DNA of 64,000 nucleotides, taken from Chitinophaga pinensis. GTDB taxonomy: Bacteria; Bacteroidota; Bacteroidia; Flavobacteriales_D; Crocinitomicaceae. Where the stretch lies: NCBI GenBank assembly GCA_945863605.1, contig CAMAZP010000005.1, positions 62,001-126,000 on the forward strand, read 5' to 3'. Below the pieces are notes generated by a model. The model worked only from the letters and a program-made list of their open reading frames with translations, did not search any database and was not told the origin of the DNA. How positions within the stretch are numbered: the stretch's first letter is position 1; each line of letters opens with the position of its first letter. A program made the translations under genes and the position numbers. Below are positions 33,376 to 44,492 of this stretch, piece by piece.

Positions 33376-34149
33376 TTATAATTTTAGTGCCTCGTAAATA
33401 TAATCAAAAGTGGATAATATTTCGGGTTTTCCATCTATTACAGCTACATTATGCTCAAAATGTGCACTTGGCATGCCATCAGCTGTTGAAATCGTCCATT
33501 TATCCTCTAAAGTAATAACTTTTTCAGAACCCAAATTAATCATTGGTTCAATTGCAATTGTTAAACCATTTTGAATTCTTTTTCCTTTACCTCGTCTACC
33601 GAAATTTGGAACTTGTGGCTCCTCATGTAAGTTTTTTCCTAAACCATGCCCTACTAAATCTCTTACAACACCGTAGCCGTTTTTTTCAGCATGTTGTTGA
33701 ATTGCCCAACCAATATCCTCAATTCGATTTGCTGTGTTACACTGTTCAATACCTAAGTATAAACATTCCTTAGTAACTTCACATAATTTTTTCACTTCAG
33801 GTTTTACATCACCTATTTCAAAGGTATAAGCATGGTCACCATAATAACCTTTATAAAGTGACCCACAATCTACTGAAACAATATCTCCTTCTTTGAAGGG
33901 GCGATCTGTTGGTAAACCATGTACGACTTGCTCATTGACAGAAATTAAAAGTGTACTCGGACAACCATACAACCCTAAAAATCCGGGAACTGCATTTTGA
34001 GAACGAATGTATGCCTCAGCAATTACATCTAATTCTTTTGGAGTGGTGCCCGGATGCATTTTTTTTGCAACTAAACCTAATGTACGACTAACAATTTGTG
34101 CTGCTTCACGCATTACAGCAATTTCTTCTAATGTTTTATAACGAATCAT
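33376..34149 (-). CDS. map: Type I methionine aminopeptidase
   Basis: Removes the initiator Met from nascent proteins; 257 aa from the ATG chosen here. The metal ligands are visible: Asp in VDCGSLYKGYYGD, Asp in the same segment (GDHAYTF), His in VGHGLGKNLHEEP, Glu in AIEPMI and Glu in FEHNVAV. Longer frames begin at 34170 or 34179, but 34179 lies inside a TACTTTTG promoter element and 34170 would leave no leader. The start MIRYKTLEEIAVMREA also matches the usual N-terminus. An unknown membrane protein gene follows on the same transcript. Confidence 0.94.
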   Translation of the reverse strand: MIRYKTLEEIAVMREAAQIVSRTLGLVAKKMHPGTTPKELDVIAEAYIRSQNAVPGFLGLYGCPSTLLISVNEQVVHGLPTDRPFKEGDIVSVDCGSLYKGYYGDHAYTFEIGDVKPEVKKLCEVTKECLYLGIEQCNTANRIEDIGWAIQQHAEKNGYGVVRDLVGHGLGKNLHEEPQVPNFGRRGKGKRIQNGLTIAIEPMINLGSEKVITLEDKWTISTADGMPSAHFEHNVAVIDGKPEILSTFDYIYEALKL

Positions 34150-34176
34150 GAATTTTCCCAAAAGTGACATAGAAAG

Positions 34177-34184
34177 CAAAAGTA
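34177..34184 (-). promoter_or_regulatory. TANNTTTG -7 element of map
   Basis: TACTTTTG on the minus strand gives a leader of about 22 nt before the chosen ATG. No TTG is found at the -33 distance, so the element is supported by position only. Confidence 0.45.
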
Positions 34185-34260
34185 ATCATTCCAAATGAAT
34201 ATTACCGAAGGCAAATTCTTACTTGATTTTATTTGAAAATATTAAAACTATTTATTTTTT

Positions 34261-34290
34261 TTTGAATTTTTAACTTTTGTTCTATCTTTG
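34261..34290 (+). promoter_or_regulatory. Bacteroidota-type promoter of the small lipoprotein gene
   Basis: TTTG (34261-34264), 18 nt and TATCTTTG (34283-34290) match both consensus boxes. The leader before the ATG is about 11 nt. Confidence 0.78.
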
Positions 34291-34305
34291 AAAAAAATAT
34301 AAATA

Positions 34306-34590
34306 ATGAAGAAAATAGTAATGATGGTTGCAGCAGTTGCTTTTTTAGTAGCGTGTAACGGTAGTAAAAAAGGAGCTTGGTCTGAGGAAGACAAACAAAA
34401 AGCTAAAGATGAAGTGAAAAAAGTTGAAGCATCATTAGATGTTTTAGGTGATAAAAAACAAGATTATATTGATTGTTATTTAGAAAAAATAGAAGATAAT
34501 TACGATAATTTTGATGCAGCGAACAAAGATCAAAAAGGATGTGAAAAATATGCTATGGATTGCGTTCAAGATATTTTTAAAGGAAAATAA
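34306..34590 (+). CDS. Small secreted lipoprotein, unknown function
   Basis: A 94-aa protein with a lipoprotein signal (MKKIVMMVAAVAFLVAC, then NGSKKG). The mature part is highly charged (KKVEASLDVLGDKKQDY). Three further Cys residues lie at about 62, 84 and 92 (IDCYLEK, GCEKYAMDC), which could form disulfides. Similar short Cys-containing lipoproteins are frequent in Bacteroidota, but I know no function. It has its own strong promoter and terminator, so it is a free-standing and probably well-expressed gene. Confidence 0.75.
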   Translation: MKKIVMMVAAVAFLVACNGSKKGAWSEEDKQKAKDEVKKVEASLDVLGDKKQDYIDCYLEKIEDNYDNFDAANKDQKGCEKYAMDCVQDIFKGK

Positions 34591-34622
34591 TTCAAAAGGT
34601 TCCAAAACTCTTTAAATAATAG

Positions 34623-34653
34623 AAGACCGTTTCGTATGATTCGGTCTTTTTTA
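34623..34653 (+). terminator. Terminator of the small lipoprotein gene
   Basis: The stem AAGACCG/CGGTCTT with a 12-nt loop is followed by a T6 run. Confidence 0.82.
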
Positions 34654-34754
34654 TTTAAAAGTATTTTTAACCACTAACTCTAAAAGAAATATTTATATGT
34701 ATTGAAATTTTGCATATTTTGATTCAACCAAAGTTTTAGCTTCGTAATTTCTTT

Positions 34755-34762
34755 TAATTTTG
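34755..34762 (+). promoter_or_regulatory. TANNTTTG -7 element at the start of the 84-aa gene
   Basis: TAATTTTG ends 4 nt before the GTG start of the next gene. The start point of transcription would fall on or next to that codon. A TTT(A) lies at the -33 distance instead of TTTG. Confidence 0.5.
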
Positions 34763-34766
34763 TGAC

Positions 34767-35021
34767 GTGCGACTTATAAAACAAATTCCTCACGAACGTT
34801 ATTTAATTCAATTACATCAATATAATGGAAAATATATTGTAAAAATTGAGTTGGGACAATTTGAGCAATTATTTAAAATCAGCGAAACGGATATAACTAA
34901 TCTAGATGATTTAGAAAAAATGATACAAGGTGAATTTCTTTCCAATTGTTTAAAACGCTTTATTGAGATGCGTTCAGACTGGCAAGAAGTATTAAATAAA
35001 TTACAAAATCAAGGTCAATAA
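34767..35021 (+). CDS. Conserved small protein of unknown function (84 aa)
   Basis: A soluble 84-aa protein (YLIQLHQYNGKYIVKIELGQFEQLFKI) with predicted strand-strand-helix-helix structure and no signal or membrane segment. The start is a GTG. There is no in-frame ATG upstream before a stop (TAA at 34755), and the first internal Met comes at residue 51. It is followed after 1 nt by the OmpH-like gene and then the DUF4924 gene, forming a three-gene operon. The role is unknown. Confidence 0.6.
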   Translation: MRLIKQIPHERYLIQLHQYNGKYIVKIELGQFEQLFKISETDITNLDDLEKMIQGEFLSNCLKRFIEMRSDWQEVLNKLQNQGQ

Positions 35022-35022
35022 C

Positions 35023-35616
35023 ATGAAAAAAATGATTTCTTTACTATTGCTCCCAACAGCAATTTTATTTTCTTGTGGTTCAAAAGAAAAGGTAAAAAAA
35101 GACTCTACTCCAAAAGTTCAAGCTCGAGATATGAATGGGTTGGTAATTGCCTATTATAGTAACGATAGTATCAAAGAAAACTTTGAGTATTATAAAAGAG
35201 AGGATGCAGCAGTAACAAAAAAACAAAAAGCATTTCAGGCTGAAGTACAGCGTCGTACAACAGAATATCAAAACTTTTTACAGCGAAAAGACCAAGAGGC
35301 TAGAGGCGGTTTGTTGTCTCAAAATGAAATTGCTCAAGCTCAGCAAAAAGCACAACAAATGGAAGCTGCTATTATGCAATATCAACAAACTGAAGGTGCT
35401 CGTTTAGAGGAAGAAACTCTTAAAAAATTGGAAGATATCAGTAAAAAAATTGAAGCTTTAGGTAAAAAATACTGTGAAAAACATAAAATTGACATTTTGT
35501 TAATTCATGGTGAAGGAGGTCAGTTGAATTATATCAATCCTTCAATGGAAGTTACGACTGAATTCATCAACTTCTTAAATGAGAATCAAAATCAGATTGA
35601 AAAAGATTTAAAATAA
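35023..35616 (+). CDS. OmpH/Skp-like periplasmic chaperone, lipoprotein
   Basis: A 197-aa protein with a lipobox (LLLLPTAILFSC, then GSKEK) and an OmpH-like sequence. A first strand (GLVIAYYSNDSIKENF) leads to a long charged coiled coil rich in Gln, Glu and Lys (about residues 60-155). A C-terminal strand ends the protein (IDILLIHGEGGQLNYINPSMEVT). Skp/OmpH proteins hold unfolded outer-membrane proteins. Being lipid-anchored is a variation from E. coli Skp. It is the middle gene of the small operon, and its stop overlaps the next start (TAATG). Confidence 0.85.
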   Translation: MKKMISLLLLPTAILFSCGSKEKVKKDSTPKVQARDMNGLVIAYYSNDSIKENFEYYKREDAAVTKKQKAFQAEVQRRTTEYQNFLQRKDQEARGGLLSQNEIAQAQQKAQQMEAAIMQYQQTEGARLEEETLKKLEDISKKIEALGKKYCEKHKIDILLIHGEGGQLNYINPSMEVTTEFINFLNENQNQIEKDLK

Positions 35617-36167
35617 TGTTAATAGCCCTTCAAAAGCAAAAAGAAAATATTGCTGAGTATTTATTGTATATGTTTCAAATTGAAGACATTATACGCTCTT
35701 TTCAATTAGATTTAGATAAAATAATGTCTCATTTTGTTGAGCCAAACATACCAAACATTTCATATTTGAGTCAATATCGTGATTGGTATTCAATATTAAT
35801 AAATCAGATGAAAGTTCGCGGATTAGAAAAAGAAGGGCATACGGAAACTGTTAATGAAGTTATTGTAGAGTTAGCTTACTTACACAATACCTTACTAACA
35901 ATTGTAAAAAATGAAAAATATATAACTTTAGTTGAGCAAGCTGCTAATTATTTGAAAGAGTTTAAAGCAAAAGCAAATATGACTCAACGCAATGATATAG
36001 AAGTGCTTTTACATGCAATGTATATGAAATTACAATTGAAAATACGTAAACAAGATATTAGCGCTGAAACAGAGGAGGCGATGGACAAATTGCGCATTCA
36101 GTTAGCTTTTTTAGCACGTGAATACAGTAGAATGAAAAATGGAGAATGGAATTTAGAAGAGCATTAA
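35616..36167 (+). CDS. DUF4924 family protein
   Basis: A 183-aa soluble all-helical protein. The N-terminus (KENIAEYLLYMFQIEDIIRSF) and NEVIVELAYLHNTLL are the recognisable segments of DUF4924, a family restricted to Bacteroidota and without known function. The start shares one base with the stop of the OmpH-like gene, so it is translationally coupled. Confidence 0.75.
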   Translation: MLIALQKQKENIAEYLLYMFQIEDIIRSFQLDLDKIMSHFVEPNIPNISYLSQYRDWYSILINQMKVRGLEKEGHTETVNEVIVELAYLHNTLLTIVKNEKYITLVEQAANYLKEFKAKANMTQRNDIEVLLHAMYMKLQLKIRKQDISAETEEAMDKLRIQLAFLAREYSRMKNGEWNLEEH

Positions 36168-36189
36168 TTCCGATTGAACTACTTAATCA

Positions 36190-36218
36190 TTGACTTTTTC
36201 ATTTTTCTTATAATTTTA
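36190..36218 (+). promoter_or_regulatory. Promoter-like site before the SUFU gene
   Basis: TTG (36190-36192), 18 nt and TAATTTTA (36211-36218), seven of eight bases of the -7 consensus, lie 23 nt before the ATG. Confidence 0.4.
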
Positions 36219-36241
36219 TTTAGATTACATTTATTTACAAC

Positions 36242-36898
36242 ATGACTCTGGAAGATTTTAAAAATACCCACGAGAATGACGATACTCCTGGTTGGAAAGC
36301 GATTGACAATCAACTCTTTTCCGTTTATGGTGATTTAGAACCACGACATTATGGACCATTGTGTGGTTTACATTATGTTGCTGGAGGATCAGATCCAATT
36401 GACGGTGTTAGTATTTATGACTCTAATAATCAAATTTTTCACAGACATTTGATTAGTTATGGAATGTCTGAGTTATATTATAATGAAGATCGTGTTGGTA
36501 GTCATTTTAGTAAATGGGGATTTGAATTCACAATGCGACTTACCCCATTTCATGAAGATAAAGGTGATCCAATTTGGGCTATACAAGTTATGAATAACCT
36601 TGCGCGATATGTTTATTCCTCTGGAAATTGGTTTGAAGAAAATCATTTTGTATCTGCAAAAGGTCCGATTCGTTCAAATTCAGATACCGAAATTACAGCG
36701 TTAATTTTTACAATTGATCCAGAACTTGGAAAAATAATTACTCCCTATGGAGAGGTAACCTTTTTACAAATAGTTGGTATAAGTTCGGATGAAGAAAAAG
36801 CGTTAGGTAGTAATCCTACAATTGGGCAAATTGAAGATTTATTGAATAAAATGAGAAGAAACAATCCATTGCTTATCACCAATTTAAATAAAAAATAG
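36242..36898 (+). CDS. Suppressor-of-fused (SUFU) domain protein
   Basis: A 218-aa soluble protein made almost entirely of one SUFU domain. The signatures are GGSDPIDGVSIYDS (about 48-61), HRHLISYGMSELY, SKWGFEFTMRL (about 90-100), NNLARYVYSSGNWFEENH and TPYGEVTFLQIVGI. In animals SUFU restrains Gli factors in Hedgehog signalling. In bacteria the domain is found alone or as an immunity protein beside polymorphic toxins. No toxin gene is adjacent here. The neighbours are the DUF4924 operon and the H-NOX cluster, so the role is unknown. Confidence 0.9.
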   Translation: MTLEDFKNTHENDDTPGWKAIDNQLFSVYGDLEPRHYGPLCGLHYVAGGSDPIDGVSIYDSNNQIFHRHLISYGMSELYYNEDRVGSHFSKWGFEFTMRLTPFHEDKGDPIWAIQVMNNLARYVYSSGNWFEENHFVSAKGPIRSNSDTEITALIFTIDPELGKIITPYGEVTFLQIVGISSDEEKALGSNPTIGQIEDLLNKMRRNNPLLITNLNKK

Positions 36899-37096
36899 TA
36901 GTTAGTAATTTTCGAGGATCACAATTACTTATTTCTTCTTTAATTAATAATACAAACATAAACAAGAAGAGTAAAAAAATGTTATTATTGTATTTAAATA
37001 AATCCAATGATACCATTAAATTGAACAAAATTTTACAATTAAAAGAACAAACTTTATTAACCAAAATATTTATTTTTCAAACTAATTATTAATGAA

Positions 37097-37729
37097 ATGA
37101 ACAATAACGTTAAAATATTTCTTGCCGAAGATCATAAACTTGTTCGCGATGCTTGGAAAATGACAATCGAAAACAATCCTTCATTTACGATAGTTGGGGA
37201 ATCAGATTCTGGTATAGATGCTTTAAATTTTTGTTCTAAAAACAAAGTTGATGTCATAATTATGGACATCAACTTAAAAGATGGAACATCTATACAATTT
37301 ATAAAAAAAATGATAGATACTATACCAAATGTAAATATCGTTGTAGTCTCTATGTTGAATGTCTATTCAATAATTAAGGACTTGTACAATTCAGGTGTAA
37401 ATGCTTTTTTAACTAAAAACTCAAGTAAAGAGCAACTTATTGAAGCAATAAACAAAGCATATAACAATGAAAAATATTACAGCGAGGAAATATCTAAACT
37501 ATTATTGGAAAGAGATAATGAAACCATCAATACTTTAAATACTAAAGAAATAAAAGTTATACAGTTTATATGTGAAGGTTTATCAAACAGGGAAATCAGT
37601 ATGAATATGAAAATGTCTGAAAAAACAATTGAAGGCTATAAAACAAAAATTTTTAAAAAATTGAAAGTATTTAATAATCTTGGTATTTATAGTTTTGCAC
37701 AAAAAAATGGTTTAATAAATTCACAATGA
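37097..37729 (+). CDS. NarL/FixJ-type response regulator
   Basis: A 210-aa two-component regulator. The receiver domain has the acidic pair AEDHKL, the phospho-acceptor Asp57 (VIIMDINLKDG), Ser at about 85 (VVVSML) and Lys at about 107 (FLTKNSS). A short linker leads to a LuxR-type helix-turn-helix (about residues 145-205: LNTKEIKVIQFICEGLSNREI, KTIEGYKTKIFKKLKV). It should bind DNA as a dimer when phosphorylated. The nearest kinase is the HNOBA/PAS kinase two genes downstream, and its DHp type (HisKA_3) is the one normally paired with NarL-type regulators. The pairing is inferred. Confidence 0.93.
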   Translation: MNNNVKIFLAEDHKLVRDAWKMTIENNPSFTIVGESDSGIDALNFCSKNKVDVIIMDINLKDGTSIQFIKKMIDTIPNVNIVVVSMLNVYSIIKDLYNSGVNAFLTKNSSKEQLIEAINKAYNNEKYYSEEISKLLLERDNETINTLNTKEIKVIQFICEGLSNREISMNMKMSEKTIEGYKTKIFKKLKVFNNLGIYSFAQKNGLINSQ

Positions 37730-37840
37730 TTTCATGATAAATTAGATACACAACAATTAACTTTTAACAATTACAGTAGAAAAAACTTACAATTTATTTT
37801 AAAAACACACATACAATTATTTAATTTATAATGATTTATG

Positions 37841-37854
37841 TTATGTTGGAACAT
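37841..37854. promoter_or_regulatory. Palindrome 1 upstream of the H-NOX gene
   Basis: TATGTT-GG-AACATA is a perfect palindrome with a 2-nt centre, 71 nt upstream of the H-NOX start. It is a candidate site for the NarL-type regulator encoded just upstream. Confidence 0.35.
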
Positions 37855-37883
37855 ACATATTTAATAATCATTCAAAAATAATT

Positions 37884-37899
37884 TTTATTCAAGAATAAA
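37884..37899. promoter_or_regulatory. Palindrome 2 upstream of the H-NOX gene
   Basis: TTTATTC-AA-GAATAAA is a perfect palindrome with a 2-nt centre, 26 nt upstream of the H-NOX start. Its geometry is like that of palindrome 1, but the sequence is different and AT-rich, so chance cannot be excluded. Confidence 0.3.
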
Positions 37900-37924
37900 T
37901 AGTTTAAAACTAAATTTAAGTATT

Positions 37925-38467
37925 ATGTATGGACTTGTAAATAAGGCAATTAAAGATCTAATTGTTAACAATCATGGTGAAAATATTTGGAAACAAATAT
38001 GCAATATGTCCAATTTTCAAGATGAAGAATTTATTGGTATGAATTCATATCCTGATAGATTAACTTTTGATTTAGTTAAAAATGCATCAATTGTATTAAA
38101 AGAAGATTCTTCTAATATTCTGGAAGCTTTTGGTGAGTATTGGATACTCTATACAGCTGATGAAGGATATGGCGAATTAATGGACTTGACAGGATCAAAT
38201 TTTGTTGAATTTTTAAGTAATCTTGACATGCTTCATTATCGAATTAGTAATATCATGCCGCATTTAGCACCACCACAGTTTACTACCAAAAATGAAATGG
38301 AAAATTCAGTGGAATTAGAGTATAGATCAACAAGAGATGGACTTGTTCCAATGCTTTTTGGATTAATTAAAGGTTTAGGTAAACGTTTCAAATTACAATT
38401 AAGTATTGAGCAAATACAGGAGAAAAATGAAAATAGTGATTGTTATGTTTTTCTTATTAAGTGGTAA
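37925..38467 (+). CDS. H-NOX heme nitric-oxide-binding protein
   Basis: A 180-aa stand-alone H-NOX domain (HNOB), the gas sensor also found in animal soluble guanylate cyclase. The proximal heme ligand His104 is in LDMLHYRI. The propionate-binding motif YxSxR reads Tyr133-Arg-Ser135-Thr-Arg137, and Pro116/117 follow the His at the usual distance. The helix after the motif (DGLVPMLFGLIKG) has no Tyr where the oxygen-binding H-NOX of Thermoanaerobacter (Tyr140) has its distal ligand contact, so selectivity for NO is inferred. The kinase gene begins 8 nt downstream. Stand-alone H-NOX proteins in bacteria usually regulate a co-encoded kinase. Confidence 0.93.
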   Translation: MYGLVNKAIKDLIVNNHGENIWKQICNMSNFQDEEFIGMNSYPDRLTFDLVKNASIVLKEDSSNILEAFGEYWILYTADEGYGELMDLTGSNFVEFLSNLDMLHYRISNIMPHLAPPQFTTKNEMENSVELEYRSTRDGLVPMLFGLIKGLGKRFKLQLSIEQIQEKNENSDCYVFLIKW

Positions 38468-38475
38468 TTTTATAA

Positions 38476-40821
38476 ATGAATAATACATCATCAAACGAAA
38501 TATATCATCAAAAATCATTGAATAGTTATAAGTTATTCGACCCATTATTTGAAAAAGATTTTGATGGAATTACCTCATTAGCTGCTCAAATTTGTTGCTC
38601 TGAAATTGCAACTATTTGTATTAAAGATCAAAATAATTGGTTTGTTTCAAAAAATGATCTCGATTTATGGCAATTTCAATGGGTTTGGGATTTTTGTAAT
38701 TATTCATTAAAAAATACCGCTCATCCATTAATTATTGAAGATGCTCGTATTCATAATCAATTTAAAATTAATTCGTTTGAAAATGATAAATTGAATATTG
38801 TTTTTTTAGTTGGAATTCCATTAGTAACTGAAGAAGGCGATACTTTAGGTACACTTTGTGTTTATGATTCTAACCCAAAAAAAATGAGTGATGTTCAAAT
38901 AGCAGGTTTACAAACACTAGCAAAAAGTGCAATAAACCTGTTTGATTTGAGAAATAAAAAAATAGAATTAATTAATTATAACAAGAATTTATATGATTCT
39001 ATAGAGTTTAATAACCCATTTTTTCTTATAGTTTCAAAAGATGCAAATTTTATTAGAATAGGAGAAAAGTTAACTAAAGTTGAGCCACTTTTAAAGCCAG
39101 GAGTGTGTTTCTTTAGTTTTTTTGAATTTATTGTACCATTTGATTGGAATTATTGGATTACAAATGAAACTCCTGTACAAAATCGTGTTTTCTTTTTTCA
39201 GTCGATAGATGGAAATCAACGTTTTAAATTTTCAATAAAACAGCACGGACAACATTTAATTCTATCTGCTCTTCCTGTAATTAATGCTAATTTTAGTCTA
39301 AAAAATTATCGGTTATCCTTAAATGATTTTTCAAAGCATGACTATATAGCAGAATTTTTATTCCTTCAACAATCTACTAATCGATCGCTTGAGGACGCAA
39401 AAATATTAATTAATAAACTACAAGATAAAAATAATCAATTACTCATTAAACAGCATCAAATTGATGTACTTGCTCGTTTTCCAAGTGAAAATCCAAATCC
39501 AATAATTAGATTTAATAGGGATTTCTCCCTTTCATATGTGAACGATGCGGCAAAAAAATCTTTTATTTCTGATTTTCAAATTAATGAAAAGAACTTTTAC
39601 GATTCAGAGTTAAGTAATTATTTGGAAGATTTAATTGTTACTGAAAAAGAAGTCATAAATTTCATAACTAAAAGAAATAATAGTCATTACAATATTTTCA
39701 TTCGTAATGTAAAAGATCAAGAATATATCAATGTTTATGCTACAGATATTACAGATTTTATAAATGAAGTAAATAAAAAGGAACAAGAACTAATAGAGCT
39801 AACAAATAAGATTAGTGAACAAAAAGAATTTTATGAGTTTATATTGAACGAGATACCATCAGATATTGCTGTTTTTTCTTCTGATCAGAAATATTTATTT
39901 GTAAATCCTCAAGGAATTAAAGATACAGCGATTCGAAATTTTATGATTGGCAAAGATGATTATGATTACTGTCGATTGAAAGGTATTTCATACGATCTTG
40001 CTGATGGTAGAAAAAAAGTTTTTAATGAGGTCATGGAAACTGGTGAGTATAAAGCATGGATTGATGATTTTATTGATAAAAATGGGAATAGGAAAGTTAT
40101 TTATAGAAGAATGGGTCCATTAAATGACAAGAAGGGCGAAATAAAATATGTTGTTGGCTACGGTATTGAAATAACCGAAAGAAAAATAGCAGAGGAAAAA
40201 TCAGAAAAACGTAAAGAAATTGCTGAATTACTTGTTGAATCAAAAGAAAAAAGTAAAGAAGAATTATACAATGATCTGCATGATGGTGTAAATCAATTGT
40301 TGTTTATTTCTAAATTGAGCATTGAAAATGCAAACATAAAAGACAATAAATATCTTAATCAGGCATTGGAATATTTAAGTTCTGCTATTGAAGAAATTCG
40401 AAAAATTGCTCTTGAATCTACATCTCAATTCATTTTTAACGAATGCTTTGTTACAGCAATTACTGATTATTTTCTAAAAATGAATACGTTCACTAAAATC
40501 AAATTCTTAATTGATAATAAGGTTACGGAGGATTTGAATCTCTATCCAAATATTAGAAAAAATATCTTTCGTATTTGTCAAGAGCTAGCTCAAAATGCAA
40601 TTAAACATTCTCAAGGTTCAAAAATGACTTTTCGTTTTGTTCACAATAATGGATATTTTATAGTAATCGCAAAAGATAATGGAGTTGGCATTAATGTCAC
40701 AACTAAAGAGGGAATAGGTTTAAAAAGTATAAAGGATAGAGTTTATCTTTTAGATGGTAAAATACGAGTTTTTAACAACTTATTTCATGGACTAACAGTA
40801 TTTATTGAAGTTAAAATGTAA
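38476..40821 (+). CDS. Soluble sensor histidine kinase with GAF, HNOBA-like and PAS domains
   Basis: 781 aa without signal peptide or membrane helix. A GAF domain spans about 20-160 (LVGIPLVTEEGDTLGTLCVYD). An HNOBA-like domain spans about 165-320 (NPFFLIVSKDANFIRIGEKL, QHLILSALPV, LSLNDFSKHDYIAEFLFLQQS), ending in a helical segment. Two PAS domains lie at about 328-430 and 450-570 (QKYLFVNPQG, VVGYGIEITERK). The HisKA_3 dimerisation helix carries the phospho-His602 (DLHDGVNQ), and the HATPase has Asn707, DNGVGI (734-739) and GIGLKSI. It is a cytoplasmic kinase likely controlled by the co-encoded H-NOX protein and paired with the upstream NarL-type regulator. The HNOBA call is from pattern memory and is the least certain part. 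Confidence 0.88.
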   Translation: MNNTSSNEIYHQKSLNSYKLFDPLFEKDFDGITSLAAQICCSEIATICIKDQNNWFVSKNDLDLWQFQWVWDFCNYSLKNTAHPLIIEDARIHNQFKINSFENDKLNIVFLVGIPLVTEEGDTLGTLCVYDSNPKKMSDVQIAGLQTLAKSAINLFDLRNKKIELINYNKNLYDSIEFNNPFFLIVSKDANFIRIGEKLTKVEPLLKPGVCFFSFFEFIVPFDWNYWITNETPVQNRVFFFQSIDGNQRFKFSIKQHGQHLILSALPVINANFSLKNYRLSLNDFSKHDYIAEFLFLQQSTNRSLEDAKILINKLQDKNNQLLIKQHQIDVLARFPSENPNPIIRFNRDFSLSYVNDAAKKSFISDFQINEKNFYDSELSNYLEDLIVTEKEVINFITKRNNSHYNIFIRNVKDQEYINVYATDITDFINEVNKKEQELIELTNKISEQKEFYEFILNEIPSDIAVFSSDQKYLFVNPQGIKDTAIRNFMIGKDDYDYCRLKGISYDLADGRKKVFNEVMETGEYKAWIDDFIDKNGNRKVIYRRMGPLNDKKGEIKYVVGYGIEITERKIAEEKSEKRKEIAELLVESKEKSKEELYNDLHDGVNQLLFISKLSIENANIKDNKYLNQALEYLSSAIEEIRKIALESTSQFIFNECFVTAITDYFLKMNTFTKIKFLIDNKVTEDLNLYPNIRKNIFRICQELAQNAIKHSQGSKMTFRFVHNNGYFIVIAKDNGVGINVTTKEGIGLKSIKDRVYLLDGKIRVFNNLFHGLTVFIEVKM

Positions 40822-40843
40822 ATTTTAAATTATTGTTTAAAAT
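40822..40843. terminator. AT-only hairpin between convergent genes
   Basis: ATTTTAAA-TTATTG-TTTAAAAT forms an 8-bp stem in the 22 nt between the kinase and M1 peptidase stop codons. It is made of A-T pairs only, so termination is plausible but weakly supported. Confidence 0.35.
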
Positions 40844-42793
40844 CTAAAAATGCACTAATTTCAATAGCTTAATTCCTTTTTCAGAATGAATTTCAACCAA
40901 GTATGTACCATTGCCAAAAGCCCTTAAATCAATTTGTTCGCTTGGTGAAATGGTTCTCGAAAGTACTTTTTGACCATTCATTTGATATACTTCAACAAGT
41001 GATTTTTTCTCTAAATTTTCGATACTAAAAATCCCATTATTAGGATTTGGAACGATTTTAAGCTCATTAGTAGTCTGAATTTCATATAAGTTGATGGTGT
41101 TGTCTAAAGTGATTGATCCGACCTTGTTCACGACCCAATTTTTAGGATCTATTCCCATATTTCCTGCTACTATACCAAAGTTTGGTATTATAAATAATTC
41201 CTCATTATCTGCAATCTCAAATCGAATGGTAGTATCTGTTTGCCCTTGTCGGAAAATACGCACATCAATTGGATTAGTAAAAGTTGCTGTAACACTTGGT
41301 TTTGATGCTGTATGACTTATTTGCAACACTAAATCATTTGCAACTTGTTTGTAGCGAATCGAATAGGTAGGATAACCTTCACCAAAATACCATTGCTCGA
41401 AAAACGGTGTCAAATTCAAACCTGTTGTTTCCATAAATTTATTACGAACATCAATTCCAGCTGCAACACTATCTGCAAAATCAGTTTGGAAAGCTCTTAA
41501 AGTATTGAAAAATAGTGTGTCGTTGTTTACTAAGTAACGTAAACTGTGAATAATTGCAGCACCTTTGTCATACGTCAGTCTTCCACTAAATATTCGATTC
41601 GTATTTAGTGAATCAGCAAACCAAACACTTCCTCCAACTTGAGTCATTACGTTATTGTGAACATCTGTCATGTGTTGAATTTTCTCATTTGGATACAAAT
41701 CTTCTAGCATCAAATATTCGCTGTAAGAAGCAAATCCTTCGTTTACCCAAATATCTGACCATGAAGCACAAGTTACATTATTTCCCCACCATTGATGCCC
41801 AAGTTCATGAGCTGTTAATGTTTTCTCAAAGAATCCTTGTGTTGTCATTGTTTGGTGTTCCATACCTCCTGATAATGGCGCCATACAGTGACCATATTTC
41901 TCATCTTCAAAAGGATAAGGACCATACAATTCGTAGAAAAGTTCGATAAAATCAGCTGTTTCGTTTATTTCATCTAAGAAATTCGGTAAGGTTTGAGGAT
42001 TATCGTAAATATAGTTTTGAATTAATATGGGAGCCGGCGCGCCAACAGGATTAGCATATAAACTATGTTCAACGTATTTAGCTACAGCAACAGAAATCAA
42101 ATAATAATCAATTGGATGTCTGTGTTTCCATTCATAGCGCGTGAATCCATTTCCAAGATTTACAATATTTTCCAATATACCATTTGAGCCAGCTTTACAA
42201 GAATCAGGAACGGTAATTTTTACGGAGCAACTATCAATCTTATCGCGTAAACTTTGTTTCACAGGAAACCATTCGTAAGCAGAAAATGGCTCTGATAGCG
42301 ACCAAACAACATGATTTCCCCATGAAGGTGAAGTGTCATAAGTCATTCCACCACCACCTAAAGGATTTGTTGCTGCATCTGGTGGAGTTCCAGAATAGTC
42401 AGTTTCAATTAGAAAAACTTCGTTTGCACTTGCATTCACAGGAACTTTAATTGCAGAATTGGAACGCGAATAATTTACGGGTTGTCCATTTACACGAATT
42501 TCCGAAATAGTAAAAGTCGAAAAAAGTTCAAAAAGAGCTGAGTCTAAGGCAACTCTTGCTTTTGCTTGCATTTCAACTGTTCCCGCGAGATATGTGGAAG
42601 TGTTGGTCATCGAAATATCTAAACCATAATAGTTGACATCATATTTTTCACTTTCTGAAATTTGAGCAACAGATAAAGTTGCACTTTTCAACGAATGTTC
42701 GTGTTTTGTTCGTTTGGAACAGGTTGTGCTTGTTTCTTGCGCTTGGATAGAAAACGTTGTAAAACAAAGAAAAAAGAAGAGTTGTTTTAGCAT
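40844..42793 (-). CDS. M1-family metallopeptidase with T9SS sorting domain
   Basis: A 649-aa secreted aminopeptidase-like enzyme with a signal peptide (FFFLCFTTFSIQA). The zinc site is His329-Glu330-x-x-His333 (HELGHQWWGN) with Glu352 (VNEGFASY) 18 residues on. GGMEH (309-313) stands for the GAMEN exopeptidase motif. The end carries a type IX secretion sorting domain (KIVPNPNNGIFSIE, VEVYQMNGQKVLSR, GTYLVEIHSEKGIKLLKLVHF), so the enzyme is exported to the surface or medium. It is a single gene; the two peptide transporters lie upstream, and together they fit peptide use. Confidence 0.94.
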   Translation of the reverse strand: MLKQLFFFLCFTTFSIQAQETSTTCSKRTKHEHSLKSATLSVAQISESEKYDVNYYGLDISMTNTSTYLAGTVEMQAKARVALDSALFELFSTFTISEIRVNGQPVNYSRSNSAIKVPVNASANEVFLIETDYSGTPPDAATNPLGGGGMTYDTSPSWGNHVVWSLSEPFSAYEWFPVKQSLRDKIDSCSVKITVPDSCKAGSNGILENIVNLGNGFTRYEWKHRHPIDYYLISVAVAKYVEHSLYANPVGAPAPILIQNYIYDNPQTLPNFLDEINETADFIELFYELYGPYPFEDEKYGHCMAPLSGGMEHQTMTTQGFFEKTLTAHELGHQWWGNNVTCASWSDIWVNEGFASYSEYLMLEDLYPNEKIQHMTDVHNNVMTQVGGSVWFADSLNTNRIFSGRLTYDKGAAIIHSLRYLVNNDTLFFNTLRAFQTDFADSVAAGIDVRNKFMETTGLNLTPFFEQWYFGEGYPTYSIRYKQVANDLVLQISHTASKPSVTATFTNPIDVRIFRQGQTDTTIRFEIADNEELFIIPNFGIVAGNMGIDPKNWVVNKVGSITLDNTINLYEIQTTNELKIVPNPNNGIFSIENLEKKSLVEVYQMNGQKVLSRTISPSEQIDLRAFGNGTYLVEIHSEKGIKLLKLVHF

Positions 42794-42872
42794 TATAATA
42801 AGAGTTTATTGTTTTAATTTGAGACAGTTTTGGGGTTGTAGAAATAATTTAGACACAATTTGAATTATTATT

Positions 42873-44492
42873 CTATTTGTAATCTGCGAAAATTTTATTC
42901 AACCATTTTAGCATTAAAAACATAAGTAGAGAAGCTGCGCAAAGGAGTACTACATTGACATAGAAGAAATTAGCTTTGTCTTCGTAACCATCCCAAAGCG
43001 AACTTAGAACCCCTGACATTTTATTACCAATTGAAGTGGCCAAAAACCATCCTCCCATCATTAAAGAGGTTAAACGTGGTGGACTTAATTTTGAAACGAG
43101 TGAAAGTCCCATAGGGCTCAGGAAAAGTTCCCCAATTGTAATGACAGCATAGGAACTAATGAACCACCAAGCTGATGATTTAATTAAACCGTTATTGCTC
43201 GCATAAACAGCACCAACCATCACGAAGCAAGATAAACCAGAAATTAAAAGTCCAAAAGCGATTTTTGTTGGGGTGGAAGGTTCCAATCCTTTTCTGTTTA
43301 AAAATCCAAAAAAGGCAAGTACTAAAGGTGTAAGGGCTATTACCCAAAATGGATTAACGGATTGGAAAATATTAGTATTAAAAGCATAAATTGTTTCACC
43401 TTCATTTGGTAGTTTTTCTGCAGGCACATTTTTAAAATAAGCAGGATAATTCCATTCTTTCAACGTTTTGTCCTTTACACGAAATTGATCATCCATAACA
43501 ACAACGGAGTCTTTTGTGTATTTAATTTTTTCTGCAAGAAATAATCCAGACATCGCTGGTTGAATTGCTGTAGGAACTTCTCTATCTGTAAAGCGATCTG
43601 CCCACGTATTTAAAGTGGAACCGTTTTGTTTGAAAACAGCCCAAAAGGTTATAACAACTGCAAAAATTGCCAACATTGCAGCAATCGGTCGTTTTTCCTC
43701 AGCTGGAGATTTGTACAATAATCGTCCATAAAAGAAAATGACAGGAATACAGCCAAAAAGAAAGGCGTCGGTTGTTTTTGAGCCCACTAAAGGTTCAGGT
43801 AGCAACAAAGCTAATAAACCAAATCCTACAGCAGGTAAGAGAATTACACCAAAAATACTCAATAAGCTCATATCATTTTCAGATTTTGGTTTGATGACAT
43901 CCACGTGTTTGAAGTGTTTAGTTCCAAGCCAAAATATTACAATTCCAATAAACATTCCGACACCTGCAGCTAAAAAGGCTGCATACCAACCATAAATGTT
44001 ATAAAGAGCAGCACCAAAGAAATTACAAACAAACGCACCGATATTGATTCCCATGTAGAAGATATTGTAACCTGCGTCTTTTTTCGCTTTATATTTTTCT
44101 TCGTTGTAAACGTTACCAAGCAATGCTGAAATATTGGGTTTAAAGAAACCATTACCAAAAATAACAAGCAACATGGCAATGTAAAGTGCATTTTTATCGT
44201 GGACAGCCATCAAACAATAACCCAAGCCCATCATGATACCTCCAATGGTAATGGAACGACGATAACCTAAAATTCGGTCGGCTAAAAGTCCTCCTATAAA
44301 TGGAGTTAGGAATACAAACGCAATAAAAGTTCCATATAAGTCAGAAGCCTCTGTTTCGTTCATCCCAAAACCTTTCTCTGCATCTTTCAGGTAAAGCGTG
44401 AAAATTCCTATCATCAAATAATAACCGAATCGTTCCCACATTTCAGAGAAAAATAAATAGGGAAGAGCCTTCGGATGTTGTCTTTCTTTCAT
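42873..44492 (-). CDS. POT-family proton-coupled peptide transporter
   Basis: A 539-aa inner-membrane importer of di- and tripeptides. The POT signature ExxERFxYY reads SEMWERFGYYLM in the first helix; FxxFYxxINxG appears as NIFYMGINIGAF. About 14 membrane helices are predicted. The longer frame starts at 44525, which lies inside the terminator hairpin of the upstream gene, so MKERQHPKALPYLFF is taken as the start. A 70-residue hydrophilic loop (FTDREVPTAIQ to PNEGETI) lies in the second half. It is a paralogue of the gene that follows upstream. Confidence 0.9.
   Translation of the reverse strand: MKERQHPKALPYLFFSEMWERFGYYLMIGIFTLYLKDAEKGFGMNETEASDLYGTFIAFVFLTPFIGGLLADRILGYRRSITIGGIMMGLGYCLMAVHDKNALYIAMLLVIFGNGFFKPNISALLGNVYNEEKYKAKKDAGYNIFYMGINIGAFVCNFFGAALYNIYGWYAAFLAAGVGMFIGIVIFWLGTKHFKHVDVIKPKSENDMSLLSIFGVILLPAVGFGLLALLLPEPLVGSKTTDAFLFGCIPVIFFYGRLLYKSPAEEKRPIAAMLAIFAVVITFWAVFKQNGSTLNTWADRFTDREVPTAIQPAMSGLFLAEKIKYTKDSVVVMDDQFRVKDKTLKEWNYPAYFKNVPAEKLPNEGETIYAFNTNIFQSVNPFWVIALTPLVLAFFGFLNRKGLEPSTPTKIAFGLLISGLSCFVMVGAVYASNNGLIKSSAWWFISSYAVITIGELFLSPMGLSLVSKLSPPRLTSLMMGGWFLATSIGNKMSGVLSSLWDGYEDKANFFYVNVVLLCAASLLMFLMLKWLNKIFADYK

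Follow-up and report, generated by a model that had tools for sequence, protein, structure and literature searches.

The DNA considered here is a stretch of 64,000 nucleotides, called the window throughout, from contig CAMAZP010000005.1 of a bacterium in the family Crocinitomicaceae, and our subject is a predicted nitric oxide (NO)-responsive two-component system encoded within it. The open reading frames (ORFs) for an H-NOX protein, a sensor histidine kinase and a NarL-type response regulator lie where a sequence-only reading of the window had placed them, downstream of a gene for a SUFU-domain protein. The regulator gene is separated from the H-NOX gene by 195 bp and the H-NOX gene from the kinase gene by 8 bases, while an M1 peptidase gene lies 3' of the kinase on the opposite strand. 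The distinctive point of the locus, missing from that earlier reading, is the kinase itself, which to judge from its sequence is a natural chimera, being of the H-NOX-linked type found in the same genus up to residue ∼570 and NarX-like thereafter. The features are as follows (positions are those of the window).

36242..36898, + strand: SUFU-domain gene (PF05076, 129.9 bits), assigned to the ancestral cassette that gave the regulator and the kinase tail
37097..37729, + strand: NarL-type response regulator (REC PF00072, 67.9 bits; GerE PF00196, 47.6 bits)
37723..37910, strand not assigned: left graft junction, in the gap between regulator and H-NOX (DNA alignments to genomes G250 and G155)
37925..38467, + strand: H-NOX (HNOB) haem NO sensor gene, 180 amino acids (PF07700 match, key residues)
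38476..40821, + strand: chimeric sensor histidine kinase, 781 amino acids, with the order GAF, HNOBA, PAS-like, PAS_4, coiled linker, NarX-like kinase (Pfam, sequence comparison)
38956..39480, + strand: HNOBA domain and following signalling helix, kinase residues 161–335 (PF07701, AlphaFold2 model, Foldseek, VIA-align)
40168..40200, + strand: right graft junction, kinase residues 565–575 (EITERKIAEEK), after the last PAS domain (identity switch between parents)
40201..40818, + strand: NarX/UhpB-like catalytic tail with His602 (LHDGVNQ), N box at 706 and G boxes at 734 and 746

The break in the kinase and its two sources

When the whole kinase was used as a query against 240 genomes of the family, with up to four first candidates scored per genome, the matches fell into two sets that meet at a single point, H-NOX-linked kinases covering the front and other kinases the end. 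The front set includes G155 (residues 6–623, with 48% identity over 6–622), G210 (131–625, with 60% over 131–575) and many more, while the end-only matches are to G250 (565–781 at 73%), G351 (558–780 at 58%) and G316 (550–780 at 45%). Among the matches scored, residues 1–781 are spanned in full by the window's own row alone; one other front row, from G375, runs to residue 675 at 41%, and the protein there (locus L040) has a HisKA-type H-box by a motif test. From residue 401 to the break the kinase is 59% identical to G155 and 66% to G210 versus 18% to HK3, a kinase of G250, and past the break these values become 4%, 4% and 73% respectively (tail identity to HK3, 71–73%). The break site, residues 565–575, coincides with the DIT-type motif that closes the last PAS domain and occurs in both parents, and the 781-codon frame is open across it.

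The end-only matches lead to a second kind of cassette. In G250 its order is SUFU, glycosyltransferase-like gene, kinase, kinase, regulator, kinase HK3, regulator; G316 holds a SUFU gene, a glycosyltransferase-sized ORF, two kinases and two regulators; and on the short contig of G351 there are a kinase and a regulator but no SUFU gene. The window's SUFU gene is 80.7% and 78.9% identical to those heading the G250 and G316 cassettes, and its regulator shares 81%, 80% and 67% identity with the first regulator of G250, G316 and G351 respectively. Counting the window's own genome, this regulator was found in 4 of the 240 family genomes (up to 12 first candidates scored per genome), and the other three contain neither H-NOX nor HNOBA by profiles that do match elsewhere. 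Across the kinase and regulator searches absence is not proof, because first candidates alone were scored.

Both ends of the graft can be placed. In G250 this regulator is followed by HK3, and in the window the H-NOX gene and kinase front occupy the place where HK3 would begin; on the left, the 3' end of the regulator aligns with G250 to ∼37722, and the DNA from ∼37911, some 15 bases before the H-NOX gene, resembles the sequence preceding H-NOX in G155. Beyond the cassettes, the flanking DNA of G250 and G316 is unlike that of the window, and the genomes sampled are related to the parents without being the parents themselves. Of 54 genomes with a match to the three genes left of the cassette (34767–36164), 29 had their loci read, and all 29 keep the three genes with no other window genes within ∼1.4 kb. 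The right flank was not kept in three wider stretches of relatives, and so no clean empty site was found there.

SUFU-domain genes head a two-component cassette in three genomes (window 36242–36898; L128:759-1430; L130:7447-8178). In two kinases of these SUFU cassettes (L128:2572-4212 and L130:4672-6300) the H-box His seems lost (LKGAVEG, LKHKVEH), while the adjoining kinase keeps it; a pseudokinase pair is possible.

The H-NOX protein and the HNOBA domain

The window's H-NOX protein covers the entire PF07700 profile (positions 1–163) at 158.8 bits (cut-off 25.5; expectation value (E) 1.4e-46), and a profile search of the genome finds a single H-NOX copy and a single HNOBA over cut-off. The haem His104 and the Tyr133-Ser135-Arg137 motif noticed in the earlier reading are borne out by comparison, all four residues being invariant across 14 aligned H-NOX proteins. 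Its best match in the PDB is Nostoc Alr2278 (E 1.4e-48), followed at a distance by human soluble guanylate cyclase (sGC) beta-1 (8e-29) and by the Thermoanaerobacter and Shewanella types (1e-7 or weaker). Trp73 and Met143 align with a W and an M of Alr2278 that we take to be distal-pocket residues, and the protein is without the tyrosine that the Thermoanaerobacter protein has for O2; O2-binding members presumably use such a distal-pocket Tyr. Because the pocket is of the Alr2278 type and the O2-type Tyr is absent, the ligand is likely to be NO rather than O2, and we predict that the protein binds both haem and NO.

The kinase region between the GAF and PAS domains (Pfam GAF 80–151, PAS_4 458–570, much as proposed from sequence alone) is a true HNOBA domain at residues 161–335. 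In a scan of the full-length kinase PF07701 reached 19.7 bits (E 6.6e-4, residues 256–330), under its cut-off of 23.4, but residues 161–335 scanned alone gave 28.2 bits (E 1.6e-6), which is over it; a six-frame search of the genome likewise lists the domain as over cut-off (22.7 bits, or 27 with its neighbours). Matches with E-values as small as these and that of H-NOX do not arise by coincidence. The features first picked out by eye are present, PFFLIV at residue 181 and LNDFSKHD at residue 282. Of 56 related aligned segments, 52 match PF07701 at E<=0.01, with a single stray match to another family. A profile (A2) made of HNOBA segments from 55 of 64 H-NOX loci plus the window matched nine PDB sequences at E<=1, of which eight (2e-19 to 0.003) are the Nostoc signal transduction histidine kinase or subunits of guanylate cyclase; the other is HIF-1-alpha (E 0.39).

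Structure prediction agrees. The AlphaFold2 model of the segment has a mean predicted local distance difference test score (pLDDT) of 89.8 and ends in a 44-residue helix (model residues 131–174). Every one of the 21 Foldseek matches at E<=1e-3 is to guanylate cyclase or to the HNOBA kinase of Nostoc, and VIA-align places human sGC beta-1 first (8hbh_B, Z 15.0, root-mean-square deviation 4.4, 164 residues), its top 11 rows being sGC or Nostoc (Z 10.6–15.0) and the best generic PAS domain scoring Z 10.2. As generic PAS domains reach Z 8–10 in VIA-align, the fold alone is not decisive and sequence decides. A generic PAS domain in place of HNOBA, which the earlier reading had named as the outcome that would overturn it, is ruled out by PF07701, profile A2 against the PDB, Foldseek and VIA-align together.

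The pairing of the two domains is common. A survey of 399 genomes from the order found HNOB in 104 (102 over cut-off), and one of 240 family genomes found HNOBA in 72. Among the 64 loci fetched by H-NOX similarity, which span Flavobacteriales, Cyanobacteria, Planctomycetota, Bryobacter relatives, a Gemmatimonadota bin and Burkholderiales relatives, 60 hold an HNOBA ORF, and in the remaining four (L035, L052, L081, L097) the sequence stops at or right after H-NOX. This count is partly circular, profile A2 having been built from 55 of the same loci; the window HNOBA as sole query matches 55 of the 64 below E 1e-3. In the usual order the HNOBA gene comes after H-NOX (in locus L085 it comes first). 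Within the family, 57 of 80 H-NOX matches have HNOBA <=2 kb downstream and 56 of 81 HNOBA matches adjoin H-NOX, rough counts given that the HNOB search of the order and the HNOBA search of the family drew partly different genomes. The unpaired remainder reflects H-NOX of other kinds, the ends of contigs and gaps in the sampling as well as HNOBA kinases with no neighbouring H-NOX gene, so that pairing is a rule with exceptions. The sequence-only reading had presented the locus as a split sensor like that of soluble guanylate cyclase, with a eukaryote-like interface and apparently new to the lineage. That novelty is not supported, since the order of genes is the usual one in the lineage and the crystal structure of an HNOBA kinase from Nostoc is in the PDB; the layout is a bacterial arrangement, not a split cyclase.

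Two further observations concern these loci. In L079:1812-3977, L080:5460-7133 and L093:7547-9283, from two Flavobacteriales bins and Uabimicrobium (with an anti-sigma-type ATPase domain), HNOBA is fused to a SpoIIE-type phosphatase right after H-NOX, and these may be NO-controlled phosphatases. In L082:1242-2306 and L092:7562-7825 the HNOBA matches following H-NOX fall within short or broken frames that may be decayed genes or the result of sequencing errors.

A proposed path from NO to the regulator

The tail of the kinase carries HATPase_c (residues 695–779, 27.2 bits) with no HisKA match by Pfam, together with the H-box LHDGVNQ (His602), the N box at 706 and the G boxes at 734 and 746. Among NCBIfam models it matches MctS, UhpB, LiaS and NarX and the regulator matches NarL, UvrY and UhpA, all far under the equivalog cut-offs. 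The relatives have other outputs. By a narrow motif test, 41 of 57 HNOBA-bearing ORFs have a HisKA-type H-box and none of the 57 has one of the HisKA_3 type, while Pfam finds HisKA_2 in L050 and SpoIIE in L079, L080 and L093. Eight kinases adjoining H-NOX (L034, L036, L042, L043, L048, L060, L069, L075) have a long insert between the two helices of the HisKA region, exceeding the Cylindrospermum kinase L086 there by ∼65 residues (8 of 9 aligned kinases); Pfam sees just the first HisKA helix in most of them.

In the regulator we located Asp57, which we take to be the phospho-acceptor, and Lys107, whose role we likewise assume from knowledge of the family. The earlier suggestion that this neighbouring NarL regulator is the partner of the kinase is favoured because in three of three other genomes the regulator adjoins kinases with the same tail; that the tail's own relatives have this regulator next to them is the strongest sign of a probable partnership, and phosphotransfer between the two is predicted.

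Upon the observed genes, domains, homologies and breakpoint, a combination unique among the sampled genomes, we build a mechanism in which haem and NO binding, H-NOX–HNOBA contact, phosphotransfer, the direction of the response and its target genes are all predicted. H-NOX would carry haem and bind NO, and the NO-bound protein would dock at or close to the kinase's HNOBA domain, shifting the long signalling helix of that domain, much as these two domains work together within the single chain of guanylate cyclase beta-1. The movement would run through the following PAS regions and the coiled linker to the NarX-type core (His602), which would alter phosphorylation of Asp57 on the regulator encoded upstream and thereby change transcription. 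The front (H-NOX and GAF-HNOBA-PAS) would derive from the H-NOX/HNOBA systems common in the genus, and the kinase core, regulator and SUFU gene from a separate cassette. We consider it probable that the locus encodes such a system, an NO-responsive pair made by a natural domain graft that joins H-NOX through HNOBA to a NarX-type kinase with its own NarL regulator. With somewhat less confidence, though still favouring it, we propose that the front recombined into a SUFU-linked NarX/NarL cassette at the DIT end of a PAS domain, giving one genome a DNA-binding regulator under the direct control of NO, and that an HNOBA helix can drive a kinase class unused by the relatives.

Several results weigh against the NO-responsive system as proposed. 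No second genome with the chimera turned up among the 240 searched with up to four first candidates each. The HisKA_3 score of the kinase, 13.8 bits, is under the 24-bit cut-off. Between the DIT motif and His602 the linker has 37 residues versus 41 in G250 HK3, which changes the coil register, so that signal transfer is not guaranteed. In the family 23 of 80 H-NOX matches have no HNOBA match within 2 kb, and 25 of 81 HNOBA matches have no listed adjoining H-NOX, some merely from sampling or contig ends (the unpaired HNOBA include G415, which in fact adjoins H-NOX, and G210, with H-NOX on another contig). G236 (L150) and G238 (L149) have HNOBA kinases without an adjoining H-NOX ORF. Finally, no internal source or sink of NO was found: the window's own genome has no match to the Cu nitrite reductase TIGR02376 or to the NorB cytochrome-c-like PF22085, the control for the latter having matched in 1 of 14 genomes only, and the search did not extend to cytochrome cd1 nitrite reductase, NosZ, bacterial NO synthase, flavohaemoglobin or Hcp. 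Apart from these points, the G236 and G238 genomes are not among the order-wide HNOB matches, Rfam has no matches in 34000–43000, and the Bacteroidetes promoter pattern occurs no more often than chance.

An ordinary H-NOX/HNOBA kinase system, acting on some other partner and merely lying downstream of an unrelated regulator, would fit both the wide occurrence of the two domains in the order and family and the 195 bp that part the regulator from H-NOX. We think it unlikely, as the tail is unlike those of the relatives past the break (4%) and comes from the same source cassette as the regulator. Quite improbable, too, is that HNOBA serves as a dimerising PAS domain only, with H-NOX signalling elsewhere or idle. 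The kinases of G236 and G238 would suit that role, as would the counting of HNOBA among the dimerisation parts of sGC (PMC2828450), but H-NOX and HNOBA are neighbours in 60 of 64 loci from several phyla and H-NOX travelled with the kinase front in the graft.

Least likely of all is an assembly artefact joining two loci, an idea that draws on the chimera's presence in one genome alone and on the relatives' genomes being mostly metagenome assemblies. The 781-codon frame runs uninterrupted through the break, and the assembly (3.09 Mb in 63 contigs; 99.98% complete, 0.52% contamination) holds no other copy of the kinase tail above 26% identity and no second HNOBA over cut-off. With pieces of the same cassette on both sides of the graft, moreover, an artefact would need two independent false joins.

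Were the proposed NO-responsive system confirmed, NO would control genes directly through a transplanted sensor in a Flavobacteriales bacterium. Sensor parts related to animal guanylate cyclase would be at hand on separate soluble proteins, with an output naturally swapped at a known residue, and the window kinase and its relatives would form ready pairs, sharing a front and differing in core, for locating the part that carries the signal. The route from NO binding by H-NOX through HNOBA and the signalling helix to the output of guanylate cyclase is still disputed. The case would also show a two-component switch gaining a new input by a single graft.

Comparison with known systems

HNOB and HNOBA were reportedly named in a 2003 paper by Iyer, Anantharaman and Aravind. 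The nearest known counterpart is the HNOBA signal transduction histidine kinase of Nostoc punctiforme (PDB 2p04, 2p08), the best PDB match of profile A2 (E 2.2e-19), which likewise has HNOBA in a bacterial kinase, and in the Cylindrospermum relative L086 H-NOX is followed immediately by HNOBA-HisKA-HATPase. Unlike the Nostoc protein, the window kinase has a GAF domain before HNOBA, two PAS-like regions after it and a NarX-like rather than a HisKA core. Animal sGC (6jt0, 6pas) has H-NOX, HNOBA and the following helix in common with the window system, but in sGC beta-1 they form one chain whereas here they lie on separate genes with a kinase output; a class III cyclase domain is absent from the Pfam matches of the window's kinase and H-NOX proteins.

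The proteobacterial systems (HnoX-HnoK of Shewanella, HahK, HqsK) have a free-standing H-NOX that controls a kinase, as proposed for the window. The outputs described for these kinases are mostly cyclic di-guanosine monophosphate (c-di-GMP) enzymes or LuxU (PMC8738867, PMC8846402), and the former gives a precedent for a DNA-binding output in HnoC of S. oneidensis, an H-NOX-controlled phosphorylated transcription factor. H-NOX in Bacteroidetes has already been noted (PMC9510103), and HNOBA and the signalling helix are known as parts common to kinases and cyclases (PMC1592074, PMC2828450). In searches of the H-NOX and HNOBA literature, no listed title or abstract describes the present system. 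From NarX/NarL and UhpB/UhpA, whose models its kinase tail and regulator match below the equivalog cut-offs, the window system differs in a sensor part replaced by H-NOX/HNOBA. Given H-NOX in Bacteroidetes, the sharing of HNOBA and its helix, and the HnoC precedent, the kind of system is a known one, and what appears to be new is the graft onto a NarX/NarL cassette.

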